Of a stretch of DNA of 64,000 bases, positions 14,164 to 21,382 are shown piece after piece (position 1 is the stretch's first letter; every line of letters begins with the position of its first letter). A model generated the notes under the pieces. It did no database searches. It saw only the letters and a list, made by a program, of their open reading frames with translations, and was not told where the DNA came from. The stretch spans positions 1-64,000 of the forward strand of contig JAFGFG010000006.1 in the NCBI GenBank assembly GCA_016931255.1, read 5' to 3'. The DNA is from Candidatus Aenigmatarchaeota archaeon. Lineage in GTDB: Archaea; Aenigmatarchaeota; Aenigmatarchaeia; QMZP01; JAFGSV01. The position numbers and the translations under genes are program-made.

Positions 14164-15138
14164 TCACACGCCTACCATGAGCCTGACGAGATTTCTGGCT
14201 GCAGGGGCTGCGCCAAGCACGAACACCGCAAGCTTTAGGAACCTGTTGAGGTCCTTATTTTCAGAGAAACGGTCTATGTACCAGAGCACCGGCACGACAA
14301 CAACGAACTTCAGGAGGAACATCACACCCGGTCCGAGATACGGCATCATCCATCGGGAAAGGAAATGCTGCTCAGTATAACCCTGCCCTCCCAGTGTTGT
14401 GAACATCGCTATCGCAAAGAATGTCGCAGTGGCATCGAAGAAGTGCGCTGACAGCACCATTGAATTTGTTCTGGTGAATATTTCTTTCATGCTTTCAGAG
14501 ATTTTTTTCCCGAAGCGGGTGAACATGTTCCTCCCGGAAGCGTATGTTATCCCGAAGAAGATGCATGTCCACGCTAATGTCACGCTTCCTATGTAAGCCA
14601 GCGGAAGGAGTGTGTTCACAGGGAGCAGTGATGCATTTGTCACGAAGAAAATCATGCCCATGAAGAACATCGTCTTCCAGCAGTCTATCTTTGCATAGTG
14701 CCTTACTGCCAGTGATACGGATAGTGAAAAAAGCGCAAGCATGAATGTTATGAGGTAGGAGCCTGGTGTCGGGAACCATGCTATGATGTATGAGTCTATG
14801 GCTGCTACGAATGTATTTCCTGTCACACCATATATGTAATCATAAGCAGTACCCTGCATTGATGACATGTATCCTGTGAATGATGAAAGGAAGCCCGGTT
14901 GCCCGGATGCGCTGTAGTATATGTAATCCCTCAATGTCCTGGTTACACCAGCGAATGCGATGAATGGTGTGAATGCTATGAACAGCCCATTGTTCACCTT
15001 CACGTCAACCTTCTTCAGGAGCGTGAACACAGCCCATATGCCTACTACCAAGCCTATGCCGTAGGCAACGCTGTTGACTGGGTTGAACCAGCCGTTGCGC
15101 ATCAGGGGAACAATAAAATATTCGTAGAGTATATCCAT
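14164..15138 (-). CDS. DUF63 family archaeal membrane protein
   Basis: Polytopic; FNPVNSVAYGIGLVVGIWAVF...AFTPFIAFAGVTRTLRDY typical of DUF63. Confidence 0.8.
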   Translation of the reverse strand: MDILYEYFIVPLMRNGWFNPVNSVAYGIGLVVGIWAVFTLLKKVDVKVNNGLFIAFTPFIAFAGVTRTLRDYIYYSASGQPGFLSSFTGYMSSMQGTAYDYIYGVTGNTFVAAIDSYIIAWFPTPGSYLITFMLALFSLSVSLAVRHYAKIDCWKTMFFMGMIFFVTNASLLPVNTLLPLAYIGSVTLAWTCIFFGITYASGRNMFTRFGKKISESMKEIFTRTNSMVLSAHFFDATATFFAIAMFTTLGGQGYTEQHFLSRWMMPYLGPGVMFLLKFVVVVPVLWYIDRFSENKDLNRFLKLAVFVLGAAPAARNLVRLMVGV

Positions 15139-15189
15139 ATCAAATACACTGAAGGCAAATTTATATTTGTTCCACAGTCAATATTAACT

Positions 15190-16146
15190 ATGAAGAAGTT
15201 TCTTCCTGTTGCGCTCGTTCTTGTTGTTTTCAGCTCCGGTTGTACAATTCCGGGTCTTGACGGTATAAACATACCGTTCCTTACAGGAGGGCAGGTTGTG
15301 CAGTACGAGCACGATGTCATAGTCATAAAAAGTCTTGAGGCAGTGCCCAGTGAGATAGATGCCGGGCAGTCAACGAAGATAATAGCATACGTCCAGAATA
15401 TCGGCGACAGAACCATTCCGATACAGGGTGTGCAGAATACACAAAACGGGATAATAGTTGAACTGTATGATTACTGCAAAGGATTGTTTAGCATAGCCTC
15501 AACATCATGTAAAGGTGTAGCAAGCAATGGCGTATGCACCATAGACAATATTCTTCCCGGAGAAATTGTTCCTGTTACATGGACAATAGAACAGAACAGA
15601 AACAGTGACATATCACTGAAAACCGTCTGCCCTCAGGATGGAATGAAGGTGCTTGTAAAGTACCCTTACAAAACAAACGCCCTTGCTGACGTGTCATTTG
15701 TAAGCAAGGAAGAACTCGAAAGGTCTATAGAGCAGAGAGACTATCTTGCGGTTGGCGATTACCTTGTCACAGGGCAGGGACCGCTCAAGCCTTACATAAC
15801 AATTGAAGACAAGCAGCCAATACCTGTATTCACCGGTGCGCGTACAGTGCTTGGGTTCCAGTTCAAAAACATGGGTCAGGGATACGCAACTGAGATAAAA
15901 GCACCTGAAATATCAGGACTGGATGGAATAGGCACTTACGCAGGCGAATGTGAGATAGCCACAATGTCAGGGCTTCAAAGCGTTACAATAATAGGCAAAG
16001 AGTCGCCGAAGTATTTGTGCAAGCTTGAAATAAGCAACATGAATTTTGAAAGACGGGCTACAAGAGTTGTCGAGGCGTCAATAGAATACATGTACACATT
16101 CACCAAAAATGTACAGGTGACAGTTAATCCCAAAATAGCTATTTAA
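15190..16146 (+). CDS. Lipoprotein, member 1 of a three-gene paralogous set
   Basis: Start placed at ATG 15190 (signal peptide MKKFLPVALVLVVFSSGC with lipobox); upstream extension of the listed ORF overlaps the DUF63 gene. Confidence 0.8.
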   Translation: MKKFLPVALVLVVFSSGCTIPGLDGINIPFLTGGQVVQYEHDVIVIKSLEAVPSEIDAGQSTKIIAYVQNIGDRTIPIQGVQNTQNGIIVELYDYCKGLFSIASTSCKGVASNGVCTIDNILPGEIVPVTWTIEQNRNSDISLKTVCPQDGMKVLVKYPYKTNALADVSFVSKEELERSIEQRDYLAVGDYLVTGQGPLKPYITIEDKQPIPVFTGARTVLGFQFKNMGQGYATEIKAPEISGLDGIGTYAGECEIATMSGLQSVTIIGKESPKYLCKLEISNMNFERRATRVVEASIEYMYTFTKNVQVTVNPKIAI

Positions 16147-16216
16147 TGGCTGGATTGTTGCCGAAAACATGTATTAAAATTTATAAACTTACCCCCCTAA
16201 GTAATAAAGGATTACA

Positions 16217-17185
16217 ATGGCTACAACAAGTTCAACTAAAAGTCTAGCAATCCTGTTAATTCTACCAATGCTGGTTCTTTTGGCATCAGGATGCACCGTA
16301 CCTGGACTTGGTGGAGGAACATCTATGTCAGGCAACGGCGTTGCGATAACGCAGTTCGCTTCAAGCCTTTCTGCGCTTGAATCAGATGATGAGGTGAATC
16401 TCCATCTCGAGGTCCAGAACATGGGAGGTGTTATTGGAGTCGTAGCTGCTCAGCTTATTGGAATATACCCTGGTGATTGGGGAATGCCAAACACCGAATA
16501 TTTCATTGGTGAGCTTCTTCCTGCAGATGCAGATATGGGAACTGAAGGACAGTTAGGAATAGCTGACTGGTATCTCAGGGCACCTGACCTTCAGAGGGGA
16601 GACAAGAGAGACTACAATCCAATAGCAAGGGTTTTCTACTCTTACGAGACAAGAGTAACGAAGCCCATAACATTCCTGACATCAGAAGAAACTAAGAGGG
16701 CAGTTCAGAACGGAGAATCTCTTCCGGCTGAAATAGCTACAGTAAGTGGCGGTCCTCTTTCAGTAACCGTACAAACAGGCGAATTTATCAGAACAAAGGA
16801 TGACTGGACACAGTCTTACTTTCCAATTGAAATAACAATAACAAACACGGGTGGTGGTCTGCTGGCCGGTGAGAACTATCCAATAGGAATTGATATAATA
16901 AATCCGCCAGGAACCATGTTCAGAGGTGATTGTCCAAGGGACTCCCAGACTGAATGGGTCGCATTCGATACAACAATACTACCAGCAGGACTCATACGTC
17001 CACCAGCAACTCAGGTAATAAACATGTGGAACGGTAGGGAAACAAAGGTGACATGCGAACTCAAGGTCGTGAACCCACCAGAATACAGGGAAACAAGGGA
17101 CCTTCAGATCACACTGAAATACGTATATTATCAGGATGAAACACTACCTTTAACTGTTACAGGAACCCGGGAATGGGGATACTGA
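16217..17185 (+). CDS. Lipoprotein, member 2 of the paralogous set
   Basis: Lipobox LASGCTVPGL; shares T-(K/S)-(P/S)-(I/V)-T-(F/L)-L and (I/V)-T-I-(T/E)-NTGGG motifs with the next gene. Confidence 0.8.
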   Translation: MATTSSTKSLAILLILPMLVLLASGCTVPGLGGGTSMSGNGVAITQFASSLSALESDDEVNLHLEVQNMGGVIGVVAAQLIGIYPGDWGMPNTEYFIGELLPADADMGTEGQLGIADWYLRAPDLQRGDKRDYNPIARVFYSYETRVTKPITFLTSEETKRAVQNGESLPAEIATVSGGPLSVTVQTGEFIRTKDDWTQSYFPIEITITNTGGGLLAGENYPIGIDIINPPGTMFRGDCPRDSQTEWVAFDTTILPAGLIRPPATQVINMWNGRETKVTCELKVVNPPEYRETRDLQITLKYVYYQDETLPLTVTGTREWGY

Positions 17186-17237
17186 TTCCCGGTCCTTTTT
17201 GTTATTAAATTAATAAGCGTTAGCTATAATTATTATT

Positions 17238-18113
17238 ATGAAAGGGCTTTACGCAGTGTTGCTCGTGTTTTCTGTTATTTTCGTGTCAGGATGCACCGTA
17301 CCTGGTTTGATTCCCGCTGGTAATGTCGGCTCAGGCGGAGGTGTCATAATCACTGATTTTGTATCAGAGCTCAATTCAGTGTATTCAGGGGAATCCGTTC
17401 AGTTTGAGCTTAAGCTGAAAAACACAGGCTCATTTGAGGCAGACGGGACTGTTGACATAGATTTAGGTCATCAGGAGTGGCAGTGCACTTCAAAATCATT
17501 TGGAGGCCAGTCTTTCACCGACCTGATAGCTCCTTCTGAGGAAAGGGGTACAGAGGGTGAAGAATTCACAGTTGCATGGAGTTGCAGGGCACCTGAAATA
17601 GATGAAGGTATGAGAATCAGCTACAATGCAAGAGCTGAAATTGAATATGCATACAAATCGCTTATATCTAAATCCGTAACACTCCTTCCGACGAATGAAC
17701 TCATTGCATTAAGGGATTCCGGACAGACTCTTCCATCAGAGTTGATAAGCCGCTCTAATTCACCTGTAAGCATAGACATACAGATTGAAGGGCCTATACG
17801 AATAAGGGATGATGTAAGAGCAGTTGAATTTCCTGTCAACATAATAATAGAAAATACAGGCGGAGGAATTGTAAAAGACAGTAAAGTGAATCTCTTTGTT
17901 GAAGGAATGGGCGGACTGACAAAAAGAGACTGCGACCATAATGACCTTGCACTTTGGAAGGGGCAGTCGCAGACAATAACATGCAGGATGAGCGCCAACA
18001 ACGTGGATGCGCTAACACAGTCCAGAATAGTCGGCCAGATAGATTATGTTTACATAACATCAGCGACTGCGACAGTTGAAGTCGAGGGCACAGACAGATT
18101 CGGCAGCTTCTAG
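17238..18113 (+). CDS. Lipoprotein, member 3 of the paralogous set
   Basis: Lipobox FVSGCTVPGL; segments clearly alignable with 16217-17185. Confidence 0.8.
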   Translation: MKGLYAVLLVFSVIFVSGCTVPGLIPAGNVGSGGGVIITDFVSELNSVYSGESVQFELKLKNTGSFEADGTVDIDLGHQEWQCTSKSFGGQSFTDLIAPSEERGTEGEEFTVAWSCRAPEIDEGMRISYNARAEIEYAYKSLISKSVTLLPTNELIALRDSGQTLPSELISRSNSPVSIDIQIEGPIRIRDDVRAVEFPVNIIIENTGGGIVKDSKVNLFVEGMGGLTKRDCDHNDLALWKGQSQTITCRMSANNVDALTQSRIVGQIDYVYITSATATVEVEGTDRFGSF

Positions 18114-19315
18114 GCATTCAGCTTTCCGTAAACACCGTCATATCCTGGTTCGACTTTCATGTTTCCGCTTCTCATCATTGCTATTATATTAGCGGTTTTC
18201 CTGTCTGATGATTTTTCTATTTCATGTTCATCTGCATCAAGGAGAACACTGAATTCAGAGCCGAATCTCTTTATGAGACGATTGTAAGCAGACCACAGTT
18301 TCTTTGACTGCATCTGGCCTGTTCCCATGGAAACGGACAGTATCTCTGTGAGCGGAAGCATTTTACGGAAAGGCACTGAATTTTTCGGGACGTAGCCCTC
18401 CTTCCTGTCGGCAAGCTCCTCAATGCGGCTTAGCACGCCTATTGTCAGCGGCTTCCCGCATTTCGGGCATTTTCCGCGCTTTTTCAGGCTTTCCGATGGT
18501 GAGAGGCATACACCGCAGCCCCTGTGGCCGTCAAAATGGTACTTTCCGTACGAAGGGTCCACCTCAACCGTGCATGTGAAAGTCTTCGGGTTTTTCTCAT
18601 TTATTGCACTCATTACAGAACCGTAGGACACGTCATTCAGGCTGAACACATTCGCCTCGCGGCCTATCCTCCACGGCCAGTATGAATGCGCATCCGAATT
18701 GGACACGAGGGCATACCCGTCCAGCGACGACACCCTCCAGTTCATCTCAGGGTCGCTCGACAGACCAGTCTCTATTGCAAATATGTGTTTGGACTGGTCC
18801 TGAAAGCATTCCTCTATGCTGTCAAATCCTGACTTGGAGCCGAGCACACCGAACCAGGGAGTCCATACATGCGCAGGTATGACTGCAATCTTCTGGTTTA
18901 TTTCCATCAGCGATTCAACCAGCTCTGTGCACGGCATCTTCCCGAATATCGGCCTGCCGTCTGATGCCAGCTTCCCTTTCCTTCCGAGGAGCTCATTTAT
19001 CTGGCCAACTGTATCTAAGTCAGGCGATAATATGACGTTGTGCACTTTCCTCAGCTTACCGCCCTGACTGTATATGTTGGCGACCTCTCCTGAAAGCATG
19101 AAGCTGAATCCGCTGCTGCTCTTCAGGACGCCGGTGCCGTCCTCTGTGAGTGATTTTTTCAGTGTTTCGAGCCATTTTGGATGGGTGAAGTCGCCTGTTC
19201 CTATTATGTCAAGTCCTTTCATTCTGGCATACTTTTCGAGCAGCTCAGGCGATGTATTTTTGCTCGTAGCACGGGAATAAGGCCCGTGTATGTGCAAATC
19301 AGCTATGACTCTCAT
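18110..19315 (-). CDS. Endonuclease Q-like PHP-domain DNA repair nuclease
   Basis: ADLHIHGPYSRATSKNTSPELLEKYARMKGLDIIGTGDFTHPKW PHP signature; VIPAHVWTPWFGVLGSKSGFDSIEECF; zinc-binding CGVC...CPKCGKPLTIGV. Confidence 0.85.
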   Translation of the reverse strand: MRVIADLHIHGPYSRATSKNTSPELLEKYARMKGLDIIGTGDFTHPKWLETLKKSLTEDGTGVLKSSSGFSFMLSGEVANIYSQGGKLRKVHNVILSPDLDTVGQINELLGRKGKLASDGRPIFGKMPCTELVESLMEINQKIAVIPAHVWTPWFGVLGSKSGFDSIEECFQDQSKHIFAIETGLSSDPEMNWRVSSLDGYALVSNSDAHSYWPWRIGREANVFSLNDVSYGSVMSAINEKNPKTFTCTVEVDPSYGKYHFDGHRGCGVCLSPSESLKKRGKCPKCGKPLTIGVLSRIEELADRKEGYVPKNSVPFRKMLPLTEILSVSMGTGQMQSKKLWSAYNRLIKRFGSEFSVLLDADEHEIEKSSDRKTANIIAMMRSGNMKVEPGYDGVYGKLNA

Positions 19316-19362
19316 TAAATATTCTTTGCCTAATGATTAAAATGGGAATGGGCCCGGAGGGA

Positions 19363-19483
19363 TTTTCAGAACCCTTTCCGCACGCATGCGCGGAAAGCGC
19401 TCCCGGAAGTCCGCTCACGCGTTTTTAGTTGCGCTTATTTTCCGGTGCGCGCTTTAGCATGTTTACTTGTGCTAAAGGGTGCT
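19363..19483 (-). other. Predicted tRNA intron 2 (T-loop, between 59 and 60, 121 nt)
   Basis: BHB: outer helix GAGGG/CCCTC, 3-nt bulge AAT, 4-bp helix TTCA/TGAA, 3-nt bulge AAA, inner helix ACCCTTT/AAAGGGT. Cleavage after the second bulge nucleotide leaves the 7-nt T-loop TTCAAAT. Confidence 0.8.
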
Positions 19484-19504
19484 TTTGAACCCTCGACCTT
19501 CAGC

Positions 19505-19534
19505 TTCTACGCTCAGGGCAAACCCCTGACAGCC
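19505..19534 (-). other. Predicted tRNA intron 1 (anticodon loop, 30 nt; boundary may shift by 1 nt)
   Basis: 6-bp hairpin TCAGGG-GTTTG-CCCTGA; relaxed bulge-helix-bulge with TTAT/GTAG helix and AAG bulges. Confidence 0.6.
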
Positions 19535-19640
19535 TTATAAGACTGGCGCTCTAGCCAAGCTGAGCTACGGGCCCGGTGTTTCAATTGTTCTTGTTGTAGA
19601 ATTTAATTGTTTAGCTTTTTTAAAGATGTTGAGGATGCAC

Positions 19641-19726: not shown

Positions 19727-21382
19727 ATGAACGGAAATATAGGACAGGGCGGCTATCAGCCGATTTTCATACTACCGGAGGGTACAGGAAGGACAAAGGG
19801 CAGAGACGCCCAGACCAATAACATAGCTGCAGCGAAGCTTGTTGCAGACACTGTAAAGACAACACTCGGACCAAAGGGAATGGACAAGATGCTTGTTGAT
19901 TCTCTCGGCGACATAACCATAACGAATGACGGCGTCACAATTCTTGAGGAGATGCAGATAGAGCATCCAGCAGCAAAGATGATGGTTGAGGTGGCAAAGG
20001 CGCAGAATGAGGCTGTTGGCGACGGAACCACAACCGCGGTTGTGCTTGCTGGTGAACTGCTGAAGAAGGCTGGTGAACTGCTCGAGCAGGATATCCATCC
20101 CATAATGATAACAAAGGGCTTCAAGCTTGCAAAAGAAAGGGCAGTAGAGGTTCTTGAGAAGTACGGCGTCGATGTCACCATGAAGGACGAGAAAGCGCTT
20201 GCGCAGATTGCAAACACGGCAATGACAGGAAAATCAGCAGAAAGAGCATCAGATTATCTTTCAAATTTATGCGTTCAGGCAGCCAAGAAGGTCTCAGAGA
20301 CCGAGAACGGCAGAATAATCGTGGACACTGACAACATCAAGATAGAGAAGAAGCACGGCGGCTCAATATCCGACACGATGCTGATAGACGGGATACTCAT
20401 AGACAAGGAAGTCGTGCATTCGGGTATGCCTAAAATGCTCAGGGACGCCAGGATAGCGCTCATTGACGCGGCAATGGAGGTCAAGGAACTTGAAGGTGAT
20501 GCGAAGATAAGCATCGACTCGCCTGAGAAGATGCAGGCATTCATGAACGAAGAGGAGAATATGATCAAGAAAATCGTGAGTGACGTGGCCAATTCAGGTG
20601 CAAATGTGGTGCTCTGCCAGAAAGGCATAGACGACATGGTTCAGCACTTCCTTTCCAAGAAAGGCGTGATGGCAGCAAGAAGGGTAAAGAAATCCGATAT
20701 GGAGAAGCTTGCCATGGCAACAGGCGCGAAGATCGTAAGCAACATATCAGAGCTCTCGAAGACAGACCTGGGAGCAGCAGGGAACGTTGAAGAAAGGAAA
20801 GTGGGCACAGACAGGATGATATTCGTGGAGAAATGCAAGCAGCCGAAAGCTGTGACCATACTCATAAGAGGCGGCACAGAGCATGTTGTCGATGAGGTCG
20901 AAAGGGCTCTGGAAGACGCAATAAGGGATATAGCGGCAACACTTGAACTCGGAAAGCTCGTGCCGGGAGGCGGCGCATCAGAGATAGAGATTTCAAGGGC
21001 GCTCAGAAAGTATGCTGAATCATTCAGCGGAAGGGAACAGCTCGCAGTACTGGCATTCGCTGATGCAATAGAGGTGATACCAAGGGTGCTTGCCGAGAAC
21101 TCAGGTCTCGACCCCATAGACAAGCTGGCCATGCTCAGGGCTGAGCACGAGAAAGGCAAGAAGTCATCGGGACTGAATGTTTTCACAGGGAGGGTAATTG
21201 ACATGCACAGCGAAGGTGTAGTAGAGCCGCTGAAGATAAAGCTTCAGGCTGTGAAATCCGCCACAGAGGCTGCTGAGATGATACTGAGGATAGATGACAT
21301 AATAGCATCCAGTGGCGGTTCCGGTGGCGCCGGTGGCATGCCACCGATGCCGCCTGGCGGCGGAATGCCCGGCATGATGTAA
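19727..21382 (+). CDS. thsA: Thermosome (group II chaperonin) subunit
   Basis: [46 protein letters not shown]-terminal GGM-rich tail. Confidence 0.97.

Follow-up and report, generated by a model that had tools for sequence, protein, structure and literature searches.

A twice-interrupted tRNA-Ile(UAU) gene in an Aenigmatarchaeota genome and the dispersed hairpin repeat carried by its T-loop intron

Introduction

The locus described here raises the question of whether a tRNA gene that is interrupted twice, once in the anticodon loop and once by 121 nt within the T loop, can be a working gene, and from where an intron of the second kind is derived. Position 59/60 of the T loop has already been reported as an intron position, with intron lengths of 11-129 nt (PMC4090602), and multi-intron tRNAs and intron transposition in the Thermoproteales (PMC4090602, PMC4033280) as well as intron-rich Asgard tRNAs (PMC11291895) have been published. 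We conclude that the gene is very likely a working AUA decoder with two spliced introns, and that the T-loop intron consists largely of copies of a class-wide repeat that has, by inference, entered tRNA genes repeatedly.

The locus lies in a 64,000-nt stretch of DNA, analysed as a whole and termed the window, between a gene at 18110-19315, which we take to encode a PHP-domain-type protein, and a gene at 19727-21382, which we take to encode a thermosome, both from a reading of the sequence. The closest matches to the PHP-type protein come from Candidatus Aenigmatarchaeota MAGs. Downstream of the PHP-type gene, at 14899-18113, three lipoprotein-like genes follow in a run and share a repeated N-terminal 'SGCT(V/I)PGL' motif.

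Architecture of the pre-tRNA-Ile(UAU) locus

Read on the minus strand (19574-19349), the locus presents an acceptor stem (GGGCCCG/CGGGCCC), a D stem and a T stem (GAGGG/CCCTC), and removal of both introns leaves a 75-nt tRNA-Ile(TAT) that ARAGORN accepts (Table 1). The unspliced 226-nt gene is not recognized by ARAGORN, and ARAGORN and Rfam at their thresholds report zero tRNA in the 64,000-nt window; in the genome-wide search with the Rfam tRNA model the locus scores 18.1 bits, under the 29-bit cut-off. Standard tRNA finders can thus miss an AUA-decoding tRNA in genomes of this kind. This anatomy is shown, while splicing is inferred, there being no RNA data.

Table 1. Features of the pre-tRNA-Ile(UAU) locus, in window coordinates
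Feature	Positions	Strand	Support or remark
Whole pre-tRNA-Ile(UAU) gene, 226 nt	19349..19574	-	Syntenic orthologue in same-genus genome G002
Exon 1 (positions 1-37, anticodon TAT)	19536..19574	-	
Anticodon-loop intron, 30 nt, canonical 37/38, relaxed BHB	19506..19535	-	Hairpin and flanks kept in G002
Exon 2 (positions 38-59; 3' end TTCAAA)	19484..19505	-	
T-loop intron, 59/60, 121 nt	19363..19483	-	Fold and covarying BHB
Central BHB helix, 5' side UUCA (54-57), partner UGAA	19486..19489	-	
Central BHB helix, 3' side UGAA	19365..19368	-	
Exon 3 (positions 60-73)	19349..19362	-	
Dispersed hairpin repeat, sense copy (GCACCCTTTAGCAC-AAGTAAAC-ATGCTAAAGCGCGCACCGGAAA)	19439..19482	-	53 bits, model R1
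Dispersed hairpin repeat, inverted copy, 3' part of T-loop intron	19369..19409	+	27.8 bits with R1; found by sequence too

The T-loop junction forms a bulge-helix-bulge (BHB) that is contained in the MFE fold of the whole 226-mer (GAGGGTTCA / TGAA-AAT-CCCTC, with 3-nt bulges on both sides), and the fold has z = -4.2 against dinucleotide shuffles, none of 200 being as low. The order of elements at the junction is T stem, a 3-nt bulge (AAU, divided AA-U), the helix UUCA/UGAA, a second 3-nt bulge (AAA, divided AA-A) and an outer helix, the last consisting of one G-C pair, a C.U mismatch and then seven pairs, ACCCTTT/AAAGGGT. At the anticodon intron no strict canonical BHB was found, only a relaxed one with the central helix UUAU/GUAG, the same in the same-genus genome, and the exact position of the 5' cut carries a one-A ambiguity. 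The mature tRNA retains a C27.A43 mismatch, which is also kept in the same-genus genome.

A first-pass annotation, made from the letters of the window alone, had already proposed a tRNA-Ile(UAU) gene with two introns, one at a non-37/38 position, and this interpretation is supported. Its coordinates, acceptor, D and T stems and intron lengths of 121 and 30 nt held as given; so did its T-loop BHB, which covaries across 33 T-loop introns as detailed below, and its claim that splicing restores a consensus loop and a 75-mer, the latter in silico (ARAGORN call tRNA-Ile(tat)). Its description of the outer helix as 'textbook' held only in part, for it had skipped the 'GC'/'TC' that forms the G-C pair and C.U mismatch. 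It had named an intact Ile(UAU) gene elsewhere as grounds for refutation, and none was found, the other Ile tRNA being Ile(GAU).

The need for an AUA-decoding tRNA

Ile(GAU) and Ile(UAU) are the only Ile tRNAs found in the genome. AUA can also be read by tRNA-Ile(CAU), for which TiaS makes agmatidine. A search for TiaS (PF08489) gave no match in this genome, four archaeal controls being positive, and AUA is the commonest Ile codon, accounting for 190 of 264 Ile codons (72%) in seven window ORFs; since TiaS is undetected and AUA so prevalent, the Ile(UAU) gene looks like an essential AUA decoder. It is the sole tRNA found here able to read AUA. The genome is 93% complete and a second Ile(UAU) gene or a TiaS gene could therefore lie in the missing part, and our genome-wide counts rest on searches, not on processing of the whole genome sequence.

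A survey of 167 archaeal genomes found a tRNA with a UAU anticodon in just two (PMC6000648). The tRNA-Ile(UAU) genes of Nanoarchaeum equitans and Korarchaeum cryptofilum, the latter with an intron, represent the same rare archaeal isoacceptor (PMC6000648); here, in contrast, a pattern search recovered Ile(UAU) from 38 of the 197 relatives searched, and all loci measured have an anticodon intron. That intron follows CTTATAA in 28 of 28 Ile(UAU) loci (a 29th, cut by a contig end, was left out), and the Ile(UAU) locus of G048 (L110) has an anticodon intron too. Class-wide, then, the anticodon intron is always kept where measured (L230-L257 and L110). This constancy is reminiscent of yeast tRNA-Ile(UAU), in which pseudouridylation of U34/U36 is intron-dependent (PMC9602550), and by that analogy the intron could possibly be functional.

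T-loop introns across tRNAs and covariation of the BHB

A scan of fetched loci identified at least eight tRNAs of the genome with a 59/60 intron: four Leu tRNAs (70, 48, 64 and 70 nt), Ser-GCU (131 nt), Gly-GCC (69 nt), Ser-UGA (69 nt) and Ile-UAU (121 nt). The tRNA at C2:220708 has an intron one position off 59/60. A second T-loop intron family (GCTTTTCCGGCAGCTGACGCCTGCACAAAAGCAGGC...) recurs nearly unchanged in two Leu tRNAs and one Gly tRNA of the genome (C2:2052-1850, C8:29646-29463 and C2:92127-92269) and in one Ser tRNA of G003 (C1:233576-233362).

Covariation was assessed with 33 distinct 59/60 introns from genomes of the same genus, order and class, chosen solely on their T stem, acceptor and D stem, the set then being narrowed by eye to clear 59/60 cases; BHB pairing was not a criterion. 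Pairing in the central helix reaches 98.5%, and the helix shows compensatory changes: the pair that position 57 forms with the intron is A-U in 18 introns, G-C in 11 and G-U in 3. Pairing in the outer helix is 74.5%, and each of its five pairs has two-sided changes. The covariation score of 0.493 was reached by none of 500 shuffles, and slid structures scored at most 0.173. Because the helix is almost fully paired in these introns, with compensatory change at position 57, the T-loop BHB is more than a chance pairing, and its covariation can be regarded as shown.

A dispersed hairpin repeat

The 121-nt T-loop intron carries two copies, one sense and one inverted, of a repeat whose unit is a hairpin, 5'-GARC-C-CUUUU...AAAAG-C-GYUC, followed by RCGGAAA, often with a conserved loop (AAGTAAAC). 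The first-pass annotation had described a single large T-loop intron and missed its membership in a dispersed repeat family; nor is the intron unique or the longest in the genome, that of Ser-GCU being longer. Pattern and BLAST searches revealed many copies; the sequence matches numbered 57 (53 after four unsound ones were dropped), nearly all from three same-genus genomes. Among 24 distinct copies, 91.9% of hairpin cells are paired and 40 cells are changed on both sides, compared with 11.1 in shuffles; the hairpin score is 0.368, and slid structures score at most 0.084. The outer pairs include GAAC/GTTC, GAGC/GCTC, TGAC/GTCA, TAAC/GTTA, TAGC/GCTA, CAGC/GCTG, CAAC/GTTG and AAAC/GTTT. We considered and rejected the possibility that the outer stem is a copied target site: at one and the same T-loop site it is GAAC in G019, AAGC in G041 and TAAC in G011, and by this variation the stem belongs to the element.

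The repeat model R1 gives 23 hits in the genome itself (G000), 57 in G002 and 23 in G003, and none in G001 or in G004. Order and class relatives also carry it (27 hits in G019, 19 in G011, 14 in G023 and 20 in G041), and at least one hit at E 0.01 is present in 22 of 31 related genomes. Within the window, the only convincing R1 hits are the sense and inverted copies of the T-loop intron. By cmscan, no Rfam family besides tRNA and rRNA was matched, and no ribozyme core of a group I or group II intron was matched.

Genomic sites of the repeat

Of the 20 own-genome copies, 16 are inside a tRNA gene or no more than 65 nt away from one, and tRNA genes together with their 100-nt flanks account for 1.4% of the genome; the searches for copies and for tRNAs were not fully independent, in that four tRNAs were noticed through a copy. 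Copies occupy T-loop, anticodon and D-loop introns, and short copies sit ~18 nt downstream of several tRNAs. Four own-genome copies are away from tRNAs, two of them between ORFs. Other families of the class also have their copies mostly in tRNA introns (T-loop, D-loop and anticodon), and one copy interrupts an archaeal 23S rRNA gene (L199, G023:C18:457-500, minus strand), where it is likely an rRNA intron. This dispersal is shown; mobility of the repeat is inferred, direct transposition not having been observed.

In five distinct cases, a repeat copy upstream of a tRNA is preceded by 15 nt that copy the tRNA 5' end, GGGCCYGTAGCTCAG. These GGGCCYGTAGCTCAG-plus-repeat units adjoin intact tRNA genes (Arg, Ile and others), lying just upstream of them, at L006/L191 (own C2:145257), L118 and L119 (G002), L131 (G003) and L139 (G002, tandem x2), and within the unit the 15-nt copy can pair with GAGTACRGGC at the 3' end. 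Two further arrangements were observed within anticodon-region introns: a tandem 40-nt array of repeat units inside the anticodon-loop intron of a G002 tRNA-Thr (L148, G002:C4:10430-10590), and an intron of >140 nt carrying the repeat antisense in a tRNA of the genome itself (L013, own C2:217547-217310).

Turnover of the T-loop intron in Ile(UAU)

The presence and absence of the T-loop intron between congeners is shown by the orthologous Ile(UAU) genes. The intron measures 121 nt in G000, 44 nt in G002 and 117 nt in G003, all congeners, and 50 nt in G004 and 64 nt in G005, which belong to the same family; it is thus present in five of six family genomes and absent from the congener G001, where the T loop of Ile(UAU) is uninterrupted, the anticodon intron is retained and R1 gives no hits. 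The introns of G004 and G005 have not been shown to carry the repeat, and locus L030 is not independent of G002. Upstream of the G002 Ile(UAU) gene sits an element with homology to the inner portion of the 121-nt intron. In the wider class the distribution is patchy, with a repeat-like T-loop intron in G088 and none in G012, G048 and G139. Repeated gain with possible loss is probably the simplest reading of this patchiness, although no tree stands behind it.

Predicted splicing machinery

The genome encodes a 398-aa protein whose whole length aligns with the ARMAN-2 epsilon2 endonuclease (4FZ2, E 5e-92) and which keeps the YK pair of the ARMAN-specific loop, a pair identified in PMC12397907, as well as a second endonuclease, a 187-aa alpha-type enzyme. 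The epsilon2-type and alpha-type genes lie at C2:196.9-198.2k (L114) and C1:13.6-14.2k (L113), respectively, and the genes for tRNA-Asn and tRNA-Phe are close to the alpha-type gene. Enzymes of the epsilon2 type have been reported to act on non-canonical motifs at a range of positions in tRNAs (PMC4033280). By homology, the genome is predicted to encode one or more endonucleases able to cut BHB introns, an activity inferred from sequence alone. The ARMAN-2 enzyme (PMC12397907, PDB 4FZ2) is alike in its three-unit type, its YK loop residues and its origin in a genome rich in non-canonical introns, but the genome studied here also encodes the alpha-type endonuclease.

Comparison with known systems

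Non-canonical archaeal BHB introns (PMC4090602, PMC8450103) resemble the T-loop intron in their junction BHB, their role as endonuclease substrates, the 59/60 position, the occurrence of several introns per gene and their length; they differ in that here the host is a DPANN class and the body of the intron is formed by a dispersed repeat, whose hairpin itself covaries and which also occurs outside tRNA introns. Near-identical introns in different tRNA isotypes and positions, the criterion for transposed introns of the Thermoproteales type, are present here, and for the Thermoproteales introns (Fujishima et al. 2010, per PMC4090602, PMC4033280) the mechanism of movement is likewise unknown. The Thermoproteales, however, are unrelated to DPANN, and unlike their introns the element described here can be searched by its consensus unit and also occurs next to tRNAs, in intergenic sites and in 23S rRNA, and one congener lacks the intron. 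The disrupted tRNA-Thr of Caldiarchaeum (PMC3293823) also combines an intron-bearing tRNA, preceded by a tRNA 5' fragment, with a repeat-linked disruption, but that element is 1.8 kb long with a recombinase gene, whereas the hairpin repeats here are tens of nt long without a gene of their own. In Cyanidioschyzon merolae, pre-tRNA-Ile(UAU) has both an anticodon intron and a T-arm intron (PMC9602550); this organism is a eukaryote, its T-arm intron is at 53/54 and there is an additional D-arm intron. We found no description of the repeat, or of Aenigmatarchaeota tRNA introns, in the literature searched, most subscription journals being outside its scope. The T-loop intron is real and of a known kind, but apparently stems from an undescribed, spreading intron family, a conclusion reached without RNA data.

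A proposed mechanism and its rivals

In the mechanism we propose, a class-wide hairpin repeat would enter tRNA genes many times, mostly at 59/60, where its 3' end (UGAA/UGGA/CGRA) would pair with T-loop nucleotides 54-57 to form a BHB. The ARMAN-2-type epsilon2 endonuclease, perhaps together with the alpha-type enzyme, would cut both BHB motifs, and a ligase would join the exons to yield a consensus UUCAAAU T loop. The insertion would be removed from the RNA and tolerated because the repeat end completes the BHB with 54-57. Counting against this explanation are the mismatch in the outer helix, the relaxed BHB of the anticodon intron, the C27.A43 mismatch and the lack of any enzyme found for movement. 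Two routes of movement were tried and rejected: an origin as REP/RAYT or IS200/IS605 palindromes, there being no Y1 transposase (PF01797) in G000-G005 while five controls were positive, and retro-mobility by an encoded reverse transcriptase, no PF00078 match being found in seven genomes.

A bolder reading, toward which the evidence inclines us only slightly, is that the repeats constitute a family of non-autonomous mobile elements whose main habitat is tRNA genes and which, on landing in a T loop, in a D or anticodon loop or in rRNA, turn into introns by completing a BHB.

The first rival holds that there is no moving element and that T-loop introns are copied between tRNAs by gene conversion of near-identical T arms. 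The dominance of the 59/60 site, the likeness of T arms and the near-identical 69-70-nt introns at the same site in two Leu tRNAs and one Gly tRNA speak for it. We nevertheless consider it unlikely, given copies in D-loop and anticodon introns, tRNA 5' and 3' flanks, intergenic sites, 23S rRNA and inverted or tandem arrays; T-arm homology cannot guide such copies.

A second rival views the repeat as a functional RNA element (such as a guide RNA or a hairpin for processing, stability or termination) kept in and next to tRNA genes by selection, with introns serving as hosts much as some tRNA-Trp introns host box C/D RNA. The strong covariation of the hairpin with its often conserved loop and the short copies downstream of several tRNAs fit this view, which we also doubt: copy number ranges from 0 to 57 between congeners, the copies are arranged in sense, inverted and tandem fashion with one in 23S rRNA, and none of the Rfam families matched besides tRNA and rRNA. 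A dead tRNA gene wrecked by insertions, with AUA read by another tRNA, would accord with the C27.A43 mismatch, the two insertions and the failure of general tools to find the gene, but is highly improbable, as no other AUA tRNA or TiaS was found for the commonest Ile codon and congeners keep an orthologue of the same architecture with compensatory BHB changes.

Implications for tRNA intron gain

The way in which archaeal tRNA genes acquire introns is a long-standing question, and transposition in the Thermoproteales has been inferred without a known unit or mechanism. The repeat family described here makes this question testable, for its unit is searchable, reaches as many as 57 model hits in a single genome and occurs both within tRNAs and elsewhere, 23S rRNA included, and at one orthologous tRNA some congeners have the intron and another lacks it. 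The tRNAs with T-loop introns would also represent natural substrates for the epsilon2 endonuclease. If the bolder reading of a non-autonomous mobile element family is true, the repeats would directly supply archaeal tRNA genes with introns throughout a DPANN class, and within a genus their gain and loss would still be under way.
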